Part shown: one piece after another, positions 11,543 through 62,840 of the stretch | Layout of the letters: each line of letters starts with the position of its first letter | How positions within the stretch are numbered: position 1 is the first letter of the stretch | Assembly (NCBI RefSeq): GCF_005871185.1 | Contig: NZ_SWKN01000007.1 | Span: 186,001-250,000, forward strand | Direction: 5' to 3' | Origin: Limnobacter alexandrii | Lineage (GTDB): Bacteria > Pseudomonadota > Gammaproteobacteria > Burkholderiales > Burkholderiaceae_B | Length of the DNA stretch: 64,000 bases | Program-made: the position numbers and the translations under genes | The notes under the pieces: model-generated | The model's input: the letters and a program-made list of their open reading frames with translations, nothing else | Databases searched by the model: none | Told to the model about the DNA's origin: nothing

Positions 11543-12450
11543 TACTCTTCCCCTCTTCTTACAAAATCAGCGATTGCCCACAAGGCTTTGTCGGCCTTTT
11601 CCACAAAAGCATTGAACATTTGAAAGTTGTGCCACATGCCTTCATACACTGTGCAGCTTACTGGTACACCAGCGGCTTTGGCACGCTTCTCCAGCAATAA
11701 AGCGTCATCGAGCAAAATTTCATCACTGCCCACCTGAATGAACATTGGCGGCAAATCATCAAGTTCTGCAAACACGGGTGACACACTTGGGTCGGCTGGC
11801 AGTGTTTCGCCGCAATACGCGCTTACCCCACGCTGCAAAGGCACCACGCTCAGCATGGGGTCGGCCTTGGCTCTGCTTTGAATGGAGGCCGAAGTCAATG
11901 TCATGTCAACAAAGGGAGAAATCATCACCAGCCCGGCAGGCAAAGGTATGCCTTCGTTGCGCGCATAAATGGCCATGGACAAAATGTGCGCCGCGCCTGC
12001 AGAGTCACCGACCAAAGTAATATTTTGGGGATTTACATCGAGGTCCAGCAGGGCCTGGTACGCCGCCAGTCCATCTTCAAGGGCTGCGGGGTATGGGTCT
12101 TGGGGCGCAAGCCTGTAATCAACCAAGAACACCCGCGCGTTGCAGCGCACAGCAAGTTCGCTGGCCAAGGGCAAATGGGTTTCAAGCGAGCCTGCAAAAA
12201 ATGCGCCGCCGTGCATGTGCAGTAAAACTTGATCAGTGTGCGCATTCGCTGGTCGAACCAATGCGCACATGCAGGTGCCCAGTTCCAGATATTCAACGCG
12301 CGCATCGGGCCGAACTTTGAACAAGGGTGCACCAGCATTCATGGTGGCTGCAAGCCAACTGAGCGGAATTGGAAGCTTACCGGGCGCCTTGAAAGTGCTG
12401 CGCAAGGTTGCACGAACAGCCTTCTCGGCCACAAACTGAATCGGGTTCAT
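11542..12450 (-). CDS. Esterase/lipase of the hormone-sensitive lipase family
   Basis: I choose ATG 12450, preceded by GGAG about 11 nt upstream, giving 302 residues. The HSL-family signatures are clear: the oxyanion motif HGGAFF and the nucleophile elbow GDSAGA, with acid in GSDEILLDDA and His in MWHNFQ. These enzymes hydrolyse short- to medium-chain esters in the cytoplasm. It is the first gene of the minus-strand operon esterase-SDR-hydrolase, with a 1-nt TAATG overlap to the SDR. The divergent PaaX-type gene is a likely regulator. Confidence 0.9.
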   Translation of the reverse strand: MNPIQFVAEKAVRATLRSTFKAPGKLPIPLSWLAATMNAGAPLFKVRPDARVEYLELGTCMCALVRPANAHTDQVLLHMHGGAFFAGSLETHLPLASELAVRCNARVFLVDYRLAPQDPYPAALEDGLAAYQALLDLDVNPQNITLVGDSAGAAHILSMAIYARNEGIPLPAGLVMISPFVDMTLTSASIQSRAKADPMLSVVPLQRGVSAYCGETLPADPSVSPVFAELDDLPPMFIQVGSDEILLDDALLLEKRAKAAGVPVSCTVYEGMWHNFQMFNAFVEKADKALWAIADFVRRGEE

Positions 12451-55195: not shown

Positions 55196-55609
55196 TTGAA
55201 CAGCACAGCAAACAATCGGCTTATTTTCCTGGGCTTTATCGCCGCCGGCTTTACCAACCTTTTCGGCATGCTAGCGGCCAGCGAATTCTTCAGTAACTCG
55301 GCTTTTCATGAATTATCGCCCGAAGTCTTTTCTCCCTTTGGCACTTTCATGGTCATGGTTTGGGGCTTGGCTTATCTGGCTGTGGCCAAACAAGCGCATC
55401 AACTGCCCGCAATCTGTTTTGTATTCGCCTTTGAAAAAGCAATCTATGTGTATACCTGGGTGATCTGGATCAGCAGTAAATCCGACATGCTGCCCATCAT
55501 TCAAGAAGAAACTCCCCTGCTCGCCTTGTTTTACTCAAGCTACGGCCTTATCGATTTGGCCTATGCGCTCTTTTTTGCATGGGTAGGAATTCGCGCACTT
55601 CAAAAATAA
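55196..55609 (+). CDS. Hypothetical four-helix membrane protein
   Basis: I start at TTG 55196, with GGAG 7 nt upstream, giving 137 residues. The frame runs on upstream to 54998, but only through the antisense of tRNA-Ser. It has four hydrophobic segments (LIFLGFIAAGFTNLFGML, FGTFMVMVWGLAYLAVA, AICFVFAFEKAIYVYTWVIW, LIDLAYALFFAWVGI). I recognise no family. It is a single gene before the nitrate-transport regulatory region. Confidence 0.65.
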   Translation: MNSTANNRLIFLGFIAAGFTNLFGMLAASEFFSNSAFHELSPEVFSPFGTFMVMVWGLAYLAVAKQAHQLPAICFVFAFEKAIYVYTWVIWISSKSDMLPIIQEETPLLALFYSSYGLIDLAYALFFAWVGIRALQK

Positions 55610-55631
55610 GTCCCAGCAAGGCACATCAAAC

Positions 55632-55736
55632 TGGTGCATGCACCACATCCATCAAAACCGGCGCACTGATTTATTTGGTGCGCCGCACCAAACTCGCTTC
55701 ATGCACCAAAATTAGCGCGAAATCTCGCACTGATTT
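55632..55736 (+). promoter_or_regulatory. Enhancer region with GGTGC/GCACC palindromes
   Basis: Perfect palindromes occur at 55632-55645 (TGGTGC-AT-GCACCA) and 55674-55692 (TTTGGTGCG-C-CGCACCAAA), with a TGCACCAAAAT half-site at 55702-55712. CGCACTGATTT occurs twice (55662-55672 and 55726-55736). The core is like an NtrC half-site (GCACC/GGTGC), but arms point outward rather than inward, so the identity of the protein is open. They lie about 70-135 bp before the sigma-54 promoter, where enhancer sites belong. Confidence 0.65.
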
Positions 55737-55771
55737 CAACCAATTTCACATCTGCGCACTTCTTTTTTGCA

Positions 55772-55788
55772 TGGCACACATTCTGCTA
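55772..55788 (+). promoter_or_regulatory. Sigma-54 promoter of the nitrate ABC operon
   Basis: TGGCAC-ACATTC-TGCTA matches the TGGCAC-N5-TTGC consensus, with GG (55773-55774) and GC (55785-55786) separated by exactly 10 nt. The start of transcription should be near 55798, leaving a leader of about 147 nt. Confidence 0.75.
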
Positions 55789-55800
55789 AGTGTGTAGTAA

Positions 55801-55917
55801 GACCTATGCCAACGAGGGACTGGGTCAGATGATTTTATGCAATGAAGTAAAGAAGTACCGGACAACGGCGTCCATCCCAATCTTGCTGGGCAGGTTTGGT
55901 GGTGTGCGCCGTTTTTT
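55801..55917 (+). promoter_or_regulatory. ANTAR-type antitermination leader of the nitrate operon
   Basis: Hairpin P1 (55801-55826) has a GACCTA/TGGGTC stem, an internal mismatch, CC/GG and hexaloop AACGAG. P2 (55860-55873) has GGAC/GTCC with hexaloop AACGGC. Both loops have A at position 1 and G at position 4, the known ANTAR target rule. The terminator (AACGGCG 55864-55870 with CGCCGTT 55907-55913, then a T run) uses the P2 loop and 3' arm, so P2 and terminator exclude each other. Confidence 0.7.
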
Positions 55918-55944
55918 CTTGGTTTGATTTTTTCAAGGACGCAC

Positions 55945-57267
55945 ATGATGAGCAACAAACCTACTGACAAAAAAACTGAACTGTCGGAAACACGCCGTAC
56001 TTTTATCAAGCAGTCAGCCGCAGTGTGGGGCTCTACCCTGCTGGCCGGTTTCGGCGCCCCATCCATCGTAATGGCCCAGTCCTCCAAAATTGAAACCACC
56101 AAAGCCAAACTGGGTTTCATCGCATTGACTGATGCGGCACCTTTGTTTGTCGGTATTGAAAAGGGCTTCTTCAAAAAGCACGGCATGCCCGATGTCGAAG
56201 TGCTCAAACAATCATCCTGGGGCACCACACGAGACAACCTGGTACTCGGCTCTGCAAATGGGGGTATCGACGGAGCGCACATCCTGACCCCCATGCCCTA
56301 CCTGATCAGCACTGGCGCAATGACTGCCAACAACATTCCCACCCCGATGTACATTCTTGCCCGTTTGAACCTGGGCGGCCAGTGTATTTCCGTCGGCGAG
56401 GAATACAAGGCCTTGAAAGTAGGCACTGACACACGGGAGTTCAAGAAAGCCCTGATGGCCAAGAAAGGGGGCGGCAAAGCAGTGAGCGCGGCCATGACCT
56501 TCCCTGGTGGAACGCACGACTTGTGGATTCGTTACTGGATGGCAGCGGGCGGTATCGACCCGAACAACGATCTGTCTACCATTGTGGTGCCACCTGCACA
56601 AATGGTGGCCAACATGAAAGTGGGCAGCATGGACACCTTCTGCGTGTGTGAGCCCTGGAACAAGCAATTAATCAGCCAGAAGATTGGCTACACCGCGCTG
56701 ACTACAAGTGAGTTGTGGCAAAACCATCCAGAGAAGGCCTTGGGCATGCGCAAAGACTGGGTGGATGCAAACCCCAACGCAGCCAAAGCCTTGGTGATGG
56801 CCGTGATGGAAGCACAAATGTTCTGCGAAGACCCGGCCAATCGCGAAGAAGTGGCACGCATCTGTTCACAGCGCCGCTGGATCAACGCCCCCATGACCGA
56901 CATTGTGGATCGCATGAAAGGCGACTTCGATTACGGCACAGGCCGCGTCGTCACCAACAGCCCACAGCAAATGCGTTACTGGAAAGACCAGGCATCGTAT
57001 CCCTTCCAAAGCCACGACCTGTGGTTCCTTACCGAAAACCAGCGTTGGGGCTATCTGCCTACAAAGCTGGACACCAACAGTCTGATCAAGCAGGTGAACC
57101 GCGAAGACATTTGGCGCCAGGCCGCAGCCACTTTGAAAATCGACAAGTCTGCCATTCCTGCTGGCACATCGCGTGGTGTAGAGAAAATGTTTGACGGCAA
57201 AGTGTTCGATCCAAAGAACCCGAAAGCCTACCTCGACAGCTTGACCATTAAGGCGATGAAATCATGA
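55945..57267 (+). CDS. nrtA: Nitrate ABC transporter substrate-binding protein
   Basis: I start at ATG 55945 with AGGA 5 nt before it, giving 440 residues. The Tat-type signal TRRTFIKQSAAVWGSTLLAGFG leads into the NrtA/CmpA fold (KLGFIALTDAAPLFVGIEKGFFKKHG, SANGGIDGAHILTPMPYL, SMDTFCVCEPWN). It binds nitrate (or nitrite/cyanate/bicarbonate in relatives) in the periplasm and hands it to NrtB-NrtD. It ends with ATGA overlapping nrtB. The regulatory leader supports nitrate or nitrogen control. Confidence 0.88.
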   Translation: MMSNKPTDKKTELSETRRTFIKQSAAVWGSTLLAGFGAPSIVMAQSSKIETTKAKLGFIALTDAAPLFVGIEKGFFKKHGMPDVEVLKQSSWGTTRDNLVLGSANGGIDGAHILTPMPYLISTGAMTANNIPTPMYILARLNLGGQCISVGEEYKALKVGTDTREFKKALMAKKGGGKAVSAAMTFPGGTHDLWIRYWMAAGGIDPNNDLSTIVVPPAQMVANMKVGSMDTFCVCEPWNKQLISQKIGYTALTTSELWQNHPEKALGMRKDWVDANPNAAKALVMAVMEAQMFCEDPANREEVARICSQRRWINAPMTDIVDRMKGDFDYGTGRVVTNSPQQMRYWKDQASYPFQSHDLWFLTENQRWGYLPTKLDTNSLIKQVNREDIWRQAAATLKIDKSAIPAGTSRGVEKMFDGKVFDPKNPKAYLDSLTIKAMKS

Positions 57268-58130
57268 TGACCACTGACTCTCTTGAACGTTTGCAAACCA
57301 CGCGCAAGGTGAAAAGCAAGCCCTTCATTGAAACAGCCGCTTTCAAACAAATCAAAGAAAGCTTGGGCAAGCTGGTTCCGCCTGTCGTGGTCATAACCAT
57401 CTTGTTGCTGATTTGGGAAATCCTTTGCAGCACTGAAGGTGCCCGTCTGCCTGCGCCCAGCAAGGTGATCACCGACACGTGGGAATTGATCATCAACCCG
57501 TTGTACGACAATGGTGGCAATGATGTGGGCATGGCCTGGCAAATTCTGGCCAGCCTTGAACGTGTGGCCATCGGCTACAGCCTTGCCGTGATTGTGGGTG
57601 TTGCGCTGGGTGTGTTGGTGGGCCAATCCACCTGGGCCTTGCGCGGCCTTGATCCACTGTTTCAAGTGTTGCGCACCGTACCGCCGCTGGCTTGGTTGCC
57701 TTTGTCACTGGCGGGCTTTCAGGATGGGAATCCATCCGCAATCTTCGTGATTTTCATCACAGCCATCTGGCCCATCATCATCAACACCTCGGTTGGTATC
57801 CGCAACATTCCCGAAGACTACCGCAACGTGTCGCGTGTTATTCAACACAACGGCATTGAGTACTTCTGGAAAATCATGTTACCCGCCGCTGCCCCCTACA
57901 TTTTCTCAGGGCTTCGCATTGGTGTGGGTCTGAGCTGGCTGGCCATTGTTGCGGCGGAAATGTTGATTGGTGGAGTGGGCATCGGCTTCTTTATCTGGGA
58001 CGCCTGGAACAGCTCGCTCATCAGCGACATTGTTCTTGCGCTGGTCTATGTCGGCATTGTCGGTTTCATTCTTGACCGCTGCGTGGCCTGGGTGGGCAAC
58101 AAAATTACACGCGGTACTTCCGCAGGCTAA
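57264..58130 (+). CDS. nrtB: Nitrate ABC transporter permease
   Basis: This 288-residue permease begins at ATG 57264, in a 4-nt ATGA overlap with nrtA. It has six membrane helices and the EAA-type loop GIRNIPEDYRNVSRVIQHNG, and matches the NrtB/SsuC/TauC branch (PPLAWLPLSLAGFQDGNPSAIFVIFI). It forms the channel for NrtA cargo. Confidence 0.9.
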   Translation: MMTTDSLERLQTTRKVKSKPFIETAAFKQIKESLGKLVPPVVVITILLLIWEILCSTEGARLPAPSKVITDTWELIINPLYDNGGNDVGMAWQILASLERVAIGYSLAVIVGVALGVLVGQSTWALRGLDPLFQVLRTVPPLAWLPLSLAGFQDGNPSAIFVIFITAIWPIIINTSVGIRNIPEDYRNVSRVIQHNGIEYFWKIMLPAAAPYIFSGLRIGVGLSWLAIVAAEMLIGGVGIGFFIWDAWNSSLISDIVLALVYVGIVGFILDRCVAWVGNKITRGTSAG

Positions 58131-58153
58131 TCAGGAACACAAGGAGTAACAAA

Positions 58154-59005
58154 ATGAGCGATCGTTTCTTAAGCATTTCTCAAGTTCAAATGAAGTTTGA
58201 ACGCAATGGCATCGTGAACCCTGTGTTGAAAGACATCAACCTGGAAGTGAACCGGGGTGAATATATTTCACTGATTGGTCACTCGGGTTGTGGAAAGTCG
58301 ACAGTGCTGAACATCATTGCTGGTTTGTTGACCGCCAGTGAAGGCGTAGTGATTGTCGACAACAAGGAAGTGAATGCTCCGGGTCCTGACCGCGCGCTGG
58401 TGTTTCAAAACCACTCCCTCCTGCCTTGGTTGACTGTTTACCAGAACGTTGAAATTGCCGTTGAAAAAATATTCAAAGGCAAAAAAAGCAAGGCCGAGCA
58501 GCGCGAATGGATTTTGCACAACCTCGACATGGTGAACATGAGCCATGCGCTTGATCGCTTGCCCTCGGAAATATCAGGCGGCATGAAACAACGCGTGGGC
58601 ATTGCCCGTGCACTGGCCATGGAACCCAAGGTGTTGTTGCTCGATGAACCCTTCGGTGCTCTGGATGCACTCACACGTGCCCACCTGCAAGACGAGGTCA
58701 TGCGTATTCAAACCGAGTTGAAGAATACCGTGGTGATGATCACCCACGATGTAGACGAAGCCGTGTTGTTGTCCGATCGCATCGTCATGATGACCAACGG
58801 CCCATCTGCCACCATTGGTCAAATTCTCGACATCGACCTGCCCCGCCCTCGCGACCGTTTGGCCCTGGCTGACGACCCCACTTACAACCACTATCGTCAC
58901 GAAGTACTCAGTTTCCTGCATGAGAAACAGCGAAAGGTTGAGGCAATCGACAAACATCGGCAGATCAAAACAAAAACTGAATCAAAGGTCAGCGCAAACG
59001 CCTGA
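58154..59005 (+). CDS. nrtD: Nitrate ABC transporter ATP-binding protein
   Basis: This 283-residue ATPase has Walker A GHSGCGKST, Walker B VLLLDEPFG, signature LPSEISGGMKQRVGIARA and H-loop MITHDVDEA. It starts at ATG 58154 after AAGGAG and lies 23 bp after the permease gene. It is the single-domain NrtD form, without the NrtC substrate-binding extension. A terminator follows at 59024, so the operon ends here. No nitrate reductase is in the window. Confidence 0.9.
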   Translation: MSDRFLSISQVQMKFERNGIVNPVLKDINLEVNRGEYISLIGHSGCGKSTVLNIIAGLLTASEGVVIVDNKEVNAPGPDRALVFQNHSLLPWLTVYQNVEIAVEKIFKGKKSKAEQREWILHNLDMVNMSHALDRLPSEISGGMKQRVGIARALAMEPKVLLLDEPFGALDALTRAHLQDEVMRIQTELKNTVVMITHDVDEAVLLSDRIVMMTNGPSATIGQILDIDLPRPRDRLALADDPTYNHYRHEVLSFLHEKQRKVEAIDKHRQIKTKTESKVSANA

Positions 59006-59190: not shown

Positions 59191-60312
59191 ATGACTGACT
59201 CAGTGAACAACCAAAAGCGCCGCGATTTTATCAAAGGCACATCAGTGGCTGCAGTAGGTGCAGGCGCCATGGCGTTCCCCATGATCTCCACTGCTCAAAC
59301 AGTGAACATGCGCTTCCAGAGCACATGGCCCCAGAAAGACATTTTCCACGAGTATGCAGTTGACTTTGCCGACAAGGTCAACAGCATGACTGGTGGTCGC
59401 CTGAAAATTGAAGTGCTGCCAGCTGGTTCAGTGGTAAAAGCTTTCGACTTGCTGGATGCTGTAAGCAAGGGCACGTTGGACGGTGGCCACGGCGTTATTG
59501 CCTACTGGTACGGTAAAAATGCGGCGGTTGCACTTTGGGGTTCAGGCCCATCTTTCGGCATGGACGCAAACATGCTGCTGGCCTGGCACAAGTACGGTGG
59601 CGGCAAGGAATTGCTGGACGAAATTTACGGCGACCTGAAAATGGACGTGGTTTCTTTCATGTCTGGCCCAATGCCAACTCAGCCTTTGGGCTGGTTCAAG
59701 AAGCCAGTGACAAAAGCCGAAGACCTGAAAGGCCTGAAGTTCCGTACCGTTGGCTTGTCTGTAGACATGTTCACGAAGATGGGTGTTGCTGTTAACGCGC
59801 TGCCCGGTGGCGAAATCGTTCCTGCGATGGACCGTGGCCTGCTGGACGCCGCTGAATTCAACAACGCATCTTCAGACCGCCTGTTGGGCTTCCCAGACGT
59901 GTCCAAGGTGTGCATGTTGCAATCGTTCCACCAGTCTTCTGAACAGTTTGAAATCATGTTCAACAAGACCAAGTACAACAAGCTGCCAGCCGAAATCAAA
60001 GCCATTATCGCAAACGCTGCCGAGGCTGCATCTGCTGACATGAGCTGGAAAGCAGTGGATCGCTACTCCAAAGACTACATGGAAATGCAGAGCAAAGATG
60101 GCGTCAAGTTCTTCAAGACACCAGACAGCATCTTGAAGGCACAGTTGAAAGCATGGGATGAAGTGACCAAAGAAAAGTCTGCTGCAAACCCCATGTTCAA
60201 GAAAGTGTTTGAATCGCAGCGTGCATTTGCTGCACGTGCAGCCAAGTGGCAAGCCGACACATCCGTCGACTTCAAAATGGCCCAAGCGTTTTACGCACAA
60301 CAAAAGAAGTAA
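59191..60312 (+). CDS. TRAP transporter substrate-binding protein (DctP type)
   Basis: This 373-residue periplasmic protein starts at ATG 59191 after AAGGAGG. It has a Tat-type signal (KRRDFIKGTSVAAVGAGAMA) and the DctP fold (MRFQSTWPQKDIFHEYAVDFADKVNSMTGGRLKIEVLPAGSVV, GLKFRTVGLSVDMFTKMG). It resembles TakP-type alpha-keto-acid binders of Burkholderiales, but I do not claim that. It hands its ligand to the DctQ-DctM permease. Confidence 0.92.
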   Translation: MTDSVNNQKRRDFIKGTSVAAVGAGAMAFPMISTAQTVNMRFQSTWPQKDIFHEYAVDFADKVNSMTGGRLKIEVLPAGSVVKAFDLLDAVSKGTLDGGHGVIAYWYGKNAAVALWGSGPSFGMDANMLLAWHKYGGGKELLDEIYGDLKMDVVSFMSGPMPTQPLGWFKKPVTKAEDLKGLKFRTVGLSVDMFTKMGVAVNALPGGEIVPAMDRGLLDAAEFNNASSDRLLGFPDVSKVCMLQSFHQSSEQFEIMFNKTKYNKLPAEIKAIIANAAEAASADMSWKAVDRYSKDYMEMQSKDGVKFFKTPDSILKAQLKAWDEVTKEKSAANPMFKKVFESQRAFAARAAKWQADTSVDFKMAQAFYAQQKK

Positions 60313-60326
60313 TTTAGTCCACAGCG

Positions 60327-60365
60327 AAAAGCCAGCACCTGCACAACGGGTGTTGGCTTTTTTTT
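60327..60365 (+). terminator. Intrinsic terminator between dctP and dctQM
   Basis: GCCAGCACC (60331-60339) and GGTGTTGGC (60349-60357) pair over 9 bp with one G-U pair, then eight T follow. It would make the binding protein more abundant than the permease. Confidence 0.87.
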
Positions 60366-60387
60366 AACCGAACCCGAGGTTCACCCC

Positions 60388-60957
60388 ATGTTAGCTTTCC
60401 TTCATTTGGTCGACAAAATTTCCACCAAGGTTGGGCATCTCTTTGCCTGGACTATCGTACTGTTGACTGGAATTATCGTGTTCGAAGTATTCACGCGATA
60501 CGCCCTGAACAGCCCCAATCCTTGGGTGTTCGATGCGTCTTACATTCTTTACGGCATCCTGTTCATGATGGCAGGTGCTTACACGCTGGCCACCAACGGC
60601 CATGTACGTGGCGACATTCTCTATGGCTTTCTTGAGCCCAGAACACAAGCCATTCTTGACCTGATTCTGTATTTCGTTTTCTTCTTCCCCGGCATCATCG
60701 CATTGACCTACGCAGGGTACACATTCGCTGACGAGGCCTGGGCGATCAAGGAAATGTCGTCCATCACCGCAGATGGTCCCCCAATTTACCCATTCAAGGC
60801 ATTCATTCCGCTGGCAGCTGTTTTCTTGCTGCTTCAGGGCGTAGTCGAAGTGATTCGCTGCGTCATGTGCATCAAGGATGGAGCATGGCCCAAGCGTGAG
60901 GACGATGTGCAAGAAGTCGATGTAGAGAAGCTCAAAGCAACTCTAAGCAAGAAATAA
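60388..60957 (+). CDS. TRAP transporter small permease (DctQ)
   Basis: This 189-residue protein has four membrane segments (LFAWTIVLLTGIIVFEVFTRY, WVFDASYILYGILFMMAGAYTLA, LYFVFFFPGIIALTYAGYTF, FIPLAAVFLLLQGVVEVIR), the DctQ layout. ATG 60388 follows GAGG. It is 11 bp before dctM, and acts with it to move substrate with sodium or proton. Confidence 0.92.
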   Translation: MLAFLHLVDKISTKVGHLFAWTIVLLTGIIVFEVFTRYALNSPNPWVFDASYILYGILFMMAGAYTLATNGHVRGDILYGFLEPRTQAILDLILYFVFFFPGIIALTYAGYTFADEAWAIKEMSSITADGPPIYPFKAFIPLAAVFLLLQGVVEVIRCVMCIKDGAWPKREDDVQEVDVEKLKATLSKK

Positions 60958-60968
60958 CAGGATCAATC

Positions 60969-62840
60969 ATGAAAAAAGAACTATATTTTGGTGTCGCCAT
61001 TATGGCAATGATCCTGATCGGGGTTGCCATTTCCATGCCCGCGCCATCGGAAATGACCAATGGCCATTTGGGCTTGCTGATGCTGTCCCTTATCGTTGTG
61101 GCCATTATGCTCGGCTTCCCAACAGCCTTTACCTTGATGGGCATGGGCGTAATATTCACATATTTTGCCTATGATCAAGACATACAGAAAACGCTCGACT
61201 TGATGGTGCAGTCGACCTACAAGGTGATGACCAACGATGTGCTCATCTCAGTTCCCTTGTTTGTGTTCATGGGCTACCTGGTTGAACGTGCAAACCTGAT
61301 CGAGAAACTTTTTAAATCCCTCCACTTGGCCATGGCTCGCCTTCCCGGCGCCTTGGGCGTTGCAACACTGGTCACTTGCGCAATCTTCGCAACGGCGACA
61401 GGTATTGTGGGTGCGGTGGTTACGCTGATGGGCTTGCTGGCCATGCCCAGCATGTTGAAAGCGGGCTACGACACCAAAATGGCCGCCGGTGCCATCACCG
61501 CCGGTGGTTGCCTGGGTATTTTGATTCCACCTTCAGTGCTGTTGATCGTCTACGGTGCCACAGCCGGTGTTTCAGTAGTACAGTTGTACGCAGGCGCATT
61601 TTTCCCCGGCATTATGTTGGCAAGCTTGTATGTTGCCTACATCATCATTCGTGCAAAACTGAACCCGAAAAGTGCACCTCCCTTGTCTGAAGAAGACCGC
61701 AAAGTGCCGCTTAGCCCTGTTCTGGATTCGCTCAAGCGTACCTATGGCAGCAGCCGCGCAGTATCGGCCTTGGTCAACGGTATGAAAGGCCGTCGTGAAG
61801 GCAACCTGACCACTGGGCAAGTAGCCAATCAGTTCTTCGTGGCCATGTTGCCCGCAATTTTCGCAGCGTTCATTCTAGGTTTGGTGTATTCCTCCCTGAC
61901 GGCACCCAAGGAAGCTGCATTTGACACATCTGGCCTGGTCAGTTTTGGGTCTGAGTATCAGGGATCCAGCAGCAGTAATTATGACTTCGGCTTCGATGAA
62001 CCTGCTGGCGCTGAAACCACGGAAGCAGCCCCCGCGTTGGAAGAACCCACGGAACCCGCCGCCGCTGCAGAAGAACCCGAGTCCACTCCTGCACCCCTGA
62101 ACTTCTGGATTTCTCTGTTAGTGGTGGTTGGAGTACTTTTGTATTACTACTCCCGCCTCAGCTTCGAACGCCTTGAAGTATTCAAGATGTTGCTGACCTC
62201 CTTCTTCCCGCTTGCAATTCTGATTTTGGCGGTGTTGGGCAGTATCGTATTTGGCTTTGCAACGCCGTCCGAGGCCGCCGCTGTTGGTGCATTCGGTGGT
62301 TTGTTACTGGCGGCCGGGTATCGTCAACTCAGCTTCCCGGTGTTGCGTGAATCTGCCTTCCTTACCTCCAAAACAACCGCCATGGTGTGTTGGTTGTTTG
62401 TGGGCTCATCCATTTTTTCAGCGGCATTTGCGCTGCTGGGTGGTCAGGAATTGGTTGAAAACTGGGTGTTGTCTTTGGGCCTCACGCCAATCCAGTTTTT
62501 GCTGTTGTCCCAAGTCATCATTTTCCTGCTGGGCTGGCCTCTGGAATGGACAGAAATCATCGTGATTTTCATGCCGATTTTCATTCCACTGCTGCCCTAC
62601 TTTGACATTGACCCATTGTTTTTTGGCTTGCTGGTCGCCATGAACCTGCAAACGGCTTTCCTGTCACCCCCGGTGGCCATGGCAGCGTTCTACCTGAAAG
62701 GCGTATCGCCACCCGGAGTCACGCTGAACCAGATCTTCTTGGGCATGATTCCCTTCATGTTCATTCAGATCTTCGCGATGTTCGTGCTGTATGTGTTCCC
62801 ACAAATCGGTATGTGGTTGCCTGGCGTGCTTTACAGATAA
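60969..62840 (+). CDS. TRAP transporter large permease (DctM), with insert
   Basis: This 623-residue protein is about 190 longer than a typical DctM. The normal core is present (ATGIVGAVVTLMGLLAMPSMLKAGYDTKMAAGAITAGGCLGILIPPSVLLIVYG and ATPSEAAAVGAFGGLLLAAG, and GWPLEWTEIIVIFMPIFIPLLP). Between them, residues ~312-377 form an acidic, Pro/Ala/Glu-rich low-complexity segment with extra hydrophobic stretches on each side (LPAIFAAFILGLVYS and WISLLVVVGVLLYYYS). The insert may face the periplasm. Confidence 0.92.
   Translation: MKKELYFGVAIMAMILIGVAISMPAPSEMTNGHLGLLMLSLIVVAIMLGFPTAFTLMGMGVIFTYFAYDQDIQKTLDLMVQSTYKVMTNDVLISVPLFVFMGYLVERANLIEKLFKSLHLAMARLPGALGVATLVTCAIFATATGIVGAVVTLMGLLAMPSMLKAGYDTKMAAGAITAGGCLGILIPPSVLLIVYGATAGVSVVQLYAGAFFPGIMLASLYVAYIIIRAKLNPKSAPPLSEEDRKVPLSPVLDSLKRTYGSSRAVSALVNGMKGRREGNLTTGQVANQFFVAMLPAIFAAFILGLVYSSLTAPKEAAFDTSGLVSFGSEYQGSSSSNYDFGFDEPAGAETTEAAPALEEPTEPAAAAEEPESTPAPLNFWISLLVVVGVLLYYYSRLSFERLEVFKMLLTSFFPLAILILAVLGSIVFGFATPSEAAAVGAFGGLLLAAGYRQLSFPVLRESAFLTSKTTAMVCWLFVGSSIFSAAFALLGGQELVENWVLSLGLTPIQFLLLSQVIIFLLGWPLEWTEIIVIFMPIFIPLLPYFDIDPLFFGLLVAMNLQTAFLSPPVAMAAFYLKGVSPPGVTLNQIFLGMIPFMFIQIFAMFVLYVFPQIGMWLPGVLYR

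Follow-up and report, generated by a model that had tools for sequence, protein, structure and literature searches.

The intergenic stretch ahead of the nitrate transporter operon nrtABD raises the question of whether the transcription of this operon is controlled by an RNA switch of the kind recognized by ANTAR-domain proteins and, if so, by which regulator. The stretch lies between an open reading frame ending at 55609 and nrtABD (55945-59005) in the window, i.e. the whole 64-kb piece of DNA that was analysed. The evidence makes it very probable that it encodes a NasT-type ANTAR antitermination leader of nrtABD. The operon consists of three genes:

55945..57267, plus strand: nrtA, nitrate-type binding protein (PF13379 NMT1_2, 348 bits)
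57264..58130, plus strand: nrtB, permease (TIGR01183, 318 bits, above cut-off)
58154..59005, plus strand: nrtD/nrtC-type ATP-binding protein (TIGR01184, 345 bits, above cut-off)

The start codon of nrtA is the ATG at 55945 or that at 55948. NrtA carries a TAT-like signal, as judged by eye, and no named NCBIfam model matched it above its cut-off. Immediately downstream of nrtD, on its strand, is a set of TRAP transporter genes for DctP-, DctQ- and DctM-type proteins (59191-62840 of the window). A second and more distant NrtA-like protein with 34% identity is encoded in the same genome (L033, G000:C1:1139947-1141065); a clear dual hexaloop leader was not found in the scanned stretch upstream of its gene.

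Switches of this kind are known from nitrate assimilation and eut operons. The NasS-NasT complex dissociates in the presence of nitrate, and the nasA leader is a binding target of NasT (PMC3795266). The target RNA follows a two-hairpin rule, in which the second hairpin, P2, overlaps a terminator (PMC3369931, PMC7496416). Antitermination by NasS/NasT, NasR and EutV is also treated in PMC5424462, PMC8934654, PMC8164766 and PMC6759348, and Azotobacter vinelandii and Pseudomonas putida are named as NasS/NasT systems (PMC5424462).

The leader in the window is built from four elements:

55801..55826, plus strand: P1 hairpin, GACCTATGCC-AACGAG-GGACTGGGTC, loop at 55811-55816
55827..55859, plus strand: linker of 33 nt between P1 and P2
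55860..55873, plus strand: P2 hairpin, the antiterminator, GGAC-AACGGC-GTCC
55864..55917, plus strand: intrinsic terminator, AACGGCG...CGCCGTT plus a T run, which takes up the P2 loop and 3' arm

The two hairpins with the hexaloops AACGAG and AACGGC, each with A at position 1 and G at position 4, had been described in the sequence-only reading and their sequence and positions are as given there. Both stems contain at least three pairs and have a C:G top pair, as ANTAR targets do. In P1, a helix of 2 bp under the hexaloop, by itself below three pairs, is followed past a 2x2 internal loop by 6 bp, and the hairpin has a folding energy of -9.2 kcal/mol. P2 has 4 bp and only -4.0 kcal/mol, far less than the -28.3 kcal/mol of the terminator (55864-55917). 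Since the terminator re-uses the loop and 3' arm of P2, the two folds are mutually exclusive, as the same reading had proposed, and the energies indicate that the terminator should form unless P2 is held closed. The folding energy of the whole leader is modestly beyond that of shuffled sequences (z -2.12; 5 of 200 shuffles were equally good). When the intergenic region 55612-55944 was dinucleotide-shuffled 5000 times, the layout of P1, P2 and terminator appeared once; this is a rough test because its rules were fixed after the sequence had been seen. A scan of both strands of the 64 kb found a single further match to this layout, at 11642-11698 on the minus strand, within a long open reading frame. 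The comparative data described below are stronger evidence for the leader than these shuffle controls.

A promoter element and a dyad are located upstream of P1:

55772..55787, plus strand: sigma54-type -24/-12 promoter element TGGCACacattcTGCT, assigned by its fit to the consensus
55676..55689, no strand assigned: dyad TGGTGCGCCGCACC, a candidate enhancer, assigned by its rarity and its recurrence in the genus

We take TGGCACacattcTGCT at 55772-55787 to fit the sigma54 -24/-12 consensus; 0.62 elements of this type are expected by chance per 64 kb. Of 66 distinct related leaders, 62 have a sigma54-like element ahead of P1, 59 of these at a distance of 19-28 nt from the P1 loop. Transcription is expected to start near 55798, just ahead of P1, which would place P1 nearly at the 5' end of the RNA. 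The dyad, surrounded by similar GGTGC/GCACC repeats, is expected 0.11 times in the window when one mismatch is allowed, and TGGTGCGNNGCACC occurs at no other place in the genome. Thirteen Limnobacter nrtA loci were inspected, with the stretch for L012 taken from the wrong place, and 8 of them contain the pattern TGGTGCGC[CT]GCACC. Upstream of nirB there is a dyad, TGGTGCGCTGCAC, related to that of the window. These dyads are possible enhancer sites, perhaps for NtrC.

The leader is conserved in the genus. The set comprised 16 Limnobacter genomes, the genome of the window (G000) and G001-G015; 13 of them have nrtA of this type and 14 have an ANTAR protein, the two genomes without one being 85% and 65% complete. 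The leader precedes 12 of the 13 nrtA loci, the exception being L014 (G015). A1 and G4 are kept in both loops of all 12 leaders, and they are also invariant in both hexaloops of 35 aligned leaders, which were drawn from the 66 distinct ones and are mostly betaproteobacterial. In the 12 genus leaders, 90% of the pairs are kept compared with 23-48% when the pairing is slid, and P1 has compensatory changes of A-U to G-C in 2 of the 12 rows and of C-G to U-A also in 2. The covariation score of P1 and P2 over the 35 leaders is 0.312; shuffles reach 0.136 and slid pairings 0.035-0.093. Covariation of both hairpins in relatives had been put forward as a check of the switch; it is seen in P1, but P2 hardly varies, being invariant in the 12 Limnobacter leaders and changing one pair from G-C to A-U in 3 of the 35 rows. 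The internal loop of P1, which had been thought unusual, is common to all 12 Limnobacter nrtA leaders. The terminator is paired in 93% of cells in these 12 leaders, compared with 35-52% when slid; its covariation in the same set is no better than in shuffles, and L010 has one broken pair in a terminator arm. The genome G004 has no nrtA of this type. It carries a dual-hexaloop leader with P2 re-paired as GAGC/GCTC before another NMT1_2-type gene, which is located right behind nasTS.

The regulator that would act on such a leader had been predicted to be NasT-like, with no gene for it in the window. A scan of the assembly, which is 98.8% complete, found one ANTAR protein. It has 207 aa with REC and ANTAR domains, and its gene overlaps that of a 328-aa NMT1_2-type protein, the expected sensor, at about C9:264600-266209, on a different contig from nrtABD. 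We call the two proteins NasT-like and NasS-like on the basis of their domains, size and neighbourhood; the best 25 of 48 matches listed for the ANTAR protein include no NCBIfam model called NasT. The pair corresponds to the NasS/NasT type, in which a REC-ANTAR protein is encoded beside its partner and the target leaders precede nitrate assimilation genes, here nrtABD and nirB-nirD-nasA.

The leader and the ANTAR protein tend to occur together. Among 31 genomes with this nrtA, that of the window included, the leader is present in 26 of the 27 that encode an ANTAR protein and in 1 of the 4 that do not (Fisher p 0.0035, with kinship ignored and the genomes not independent). In the three ANTAR-less genomes G031, G033 and G035, the sigma54 element at nrtA is retained and no such leader follows it. 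The fourth, G027, has the leader and no ANTAR match, and is 97% complete in 120 contigs. The converse exception is G015, which has an ANTAR protein and a nirB leader, yet its nrtA (L014) has a sigma54-like element and no attenuator.

A second leader of the same build is present in the genome, before nirB-nirD-nasA:

L151:15696-15787, minus strand: nirB leader with P1, linker hairpin, P2 and terminator

The nirB gene (924 bits, above cut-off) is on the nasST contig, about 9 kb from the pair. It is overlapped by a nirD-like open reading frame of 123 aa, recognized by eye, and a nearby 945-aa molybdopterin protein matched NasA/NasC models below their cut-offs. Its parts are a sigma54-like element, TGGCACGACCCTTGCA, the hairpins P1 (GGTCGTC-AACGGC-GGCGATC) and P2 (GGAC-AACGGC-GTCC), separated by a linker of 47 nt that contains a strong hairpin, and a terminator. 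It was the second-best match in the genome (24.4 bits, E 6e-4) of a covariance model built from nrtA leaders, in which it was itself absent. The layout was absent in the eight weaker matches (18.2 bits or less) that were checked (L154-L161). The layout scan likewise fails to pick up the nirB leader L153, probably owing to a shorter terminator arm. All 13 Limnobacter nirB loci with upstream sequence have a leader of this type; a 14th locus is cut by the end of its contig. The 13 leaders agree at every position of a 21-nt block, CAGGTGGATTGACAGGTCTCC, located between P1 and the linker hairpin, and the adjoining hairpin varies. In the linker stem, 90% of cells are kept and two pairs are changed on both sides; RNAalifold favours a different fold. 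A search for the block GGTGGATTGACAGGT in 399 genomes of the order found it three times, twice in Limnobacter nirB leaders and once in what by eye is apparently coding sequence. The presence of one ANTAR protein and of a second leader at nirB indicates that a single NasT probably serves both the nrtABD and the nirB-nirD-nasA operons.

By analogy with the literature on NasT, NasR and EutV, nitrate would release NasT, which would bind the leader RNA and cause antitermination. The sigma54 RNA polymerase, presumably activated by nitrogen limitation, would start at about 55798, and P1 would be made at once. When nitrate is lacking, NasS would hold NasT, and the nascent RNA would go past the weak P2 into the terminator and stop at about 55917. 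When nitrate is available, NasS would let go of NasT, which would then bind the A1/G4 hexaloops of P1 and P2 and keep P2 closed, so that no terminator forms and nrtABD is transcribed. The nirB-nirD-nasA leader would be served by the same NasT. Sensor, regulator and two operons with their leaders are thus joined into one predicted Limnobacter nitrate regulon, which natural leader-loss variants could test.

Other explanations were weighed. The operon could be under promoter control alone, with an ordinary terminator and incidental structure in front of it, as might be suggested by the sigma54-like promoter of nrtABD and by those relatives, including L014, in which nrtA stands behind a sigma54-like element without a leader. 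Incidental structure would hardly account for the loop letters A1/G4 being kept in 12 Limnobacter nrtA leaders, the covariation of P1, the second copy in the genome and the absence of the leader from three genomes that lack an ANTAR protein, and we consider this explanation very improbable. Still more remote is the action of a one-component NIT-ANTAR regulator in place of NasS/NasT. NasR, the model for it, works on the same type of two-hairpin RNA (PMC7496416), but the one ANTAR protein that the scan found carries a REC and not a NIT domain and is encoded next to a NasS-like gene. A NasR-type regulator would require a second ANTAR gene in the part that the 98.8% complete assembly lacks, and is otherwise excluded.

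The remaining alternative concerns the identity of the hairpin that partners P2, which could be an inner hexaloop of the linker, AATGAA (55841-55846, 23 nt from the P2 loop), rather than the outer P1. Three A1/G4 hexaloop hairpins are found upstream of nrtA in L017, L021 and L032, where the middle one is 23-25 nt from P2, and the linkers of L003 and L004 also have an inner A1/G4 loop at 23-24 nt, which shuffles produce in 4-5% of cases. Against this, inner A1/G4 loops occur in 3 of 60 linkers of at least 17 nt, where 1.1 are expected, the linker stem of the window shows no covariation in the genus, L012, L013 and L015 show no inner loop, and it is the outer P1 that is the conserved hairpin. 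The inner hexaloop was rejected as the main site on the counts and the missing genus covariation, and such a role for it is unlikely, if less so than promoter control alone. The preferred reading remains that of a NasT-type leader with P1 and P2 as the paired sites.

Compared with known systems, the leader is a new example of the mechanism of NasS/NasT, NasR and EutV. It resembles the NasS/NasT nas leaders, such as that of nasA in Paracoccus denitrificans, in having a NasT-NasS pair and in the hairpins and terminator before nitrate assimilation genes (PMC3795266, PMC5424462). The likeness concerns these parts; the difference is that in Limnobacter the transporter operon nrtABD, on a different contig from nasST, is also a predicted target. 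The Klebsiella oxytoca nasF leader shares the two hexaloop hairpins (PMC7496416) and the antitermination under nitrogen limitation with nitrate that is proposed here (PMC5424462), but NasR is a NIT-ANTAR protein, whereas the Limnobacter regulator is a REC-ANTAR protein with a separate NasS-like sensor. The eut leaders of Enterococcus faecalis, the targets of EutV, share the A1/G4 hexaloops and the terminator overlapped by P2 (PMC3369931). The mildly new features are the range of spacing and the likeness to two Rfam families. The consensus structures of RF00625 (P11, a Pseudomonas sRNA) and RF03032 (narK RNA) contain a sigma54-like element and hexaloop hairpins and, in P11, a hairpin overlapping P2. 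At the gathering score, Rfam found only tRNAs in the window and no leader matches in 18 related loci. P11 scored 13.8 and 24.1 against a gathering score of 70, and narK 14.8 and 19.8 against 43.2; the matches in the window are at chance level (E 0.59 and 1.4), and the best for the nirB leader has E 0.0014. All these scores are below gathering, so that by Rfam's rule the leaders do not belong to either family. The two consensus structures carry the same parts, so that both families look like the same RNA class; P11 and narK RNA may be of one class with these leaders, maybe NasT leaders, and part of both models may represent promoter DNA and not RNA. Among the open-licence papers listed, none was found that links P11 or narK RNA to ANTAR proteins or that deals with a Limnobacter leader.

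The 33-nt linker had been called unusual. This holds with respect to EutV, whose spacing rule it breaks: eut linkers have 5-12 nt, induction is drastically lower with 14 nt (PMC3369931), and antitermination is absent once 20 nt are added (PMC8934654). The linker is also outside the 2-25 nt allowed in an actinobacterial screen (PMC8164766). Among related leaders it is not unusual, since its loop-to-loop distance of 53 nt is within their range of 21-71 nt (linkers of 2-55 nt). In the motif definition of Ramesh et al. (PMC3369931), the length of the linker is variable. Their definition and the linkers of the relatives indicate that short linkers are required by EutV and by one screen rather than by the class; the spacing of P1 and P2 is looser in the NasT-type leader class than in EutV. 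The wide range challenges a rule derived from a single protein, and leaders of this kind would escape searches that, like the actinobacterial screen, accept only linkers of 2-25 nt.

The linker in the window can form no more than a weak hairpin rich in A and U (MFE -1.0 kcal/mol, z about -0.1), and a conserved hairpin there was rejected because its folding is at the level of shuffles and the genus comparison shows no covariation. Linkers of at least 20 nt, in 21 clusters, fold better than shuffles (mean z -1.48, with p of 0.05 or less in 8 of the 21), and those of 12-19 nt, in 14 clusters, show no clear excess (3 of 14, combined p 0.16). The idea that linker hairpins give a fixed effective length was rejected (folded median 10, shuffled 11.3). 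A joint reading of these data is possible rather than probable. NasT would be free of the fixed spacing of EutV, with loops 21-71 nt apart, and oligomeric once freed; many long-linker lineages, e.g. Limnobacter nirB, would have a separate hairpin of variable sequence between P1 and P2; the leader in the window would be a long example with little folding, which suggests that NasT binds P1 and P2 sequentially or across a flexible tether; and the orphan P11 and narK RNAs would belong to the same RNA class. The nirB linkers apparently fall within the cluster represented by L024 (p 0.146), and L024 itself has a shorter form of the CAGGTGGATTGACAGGTCTCC block.
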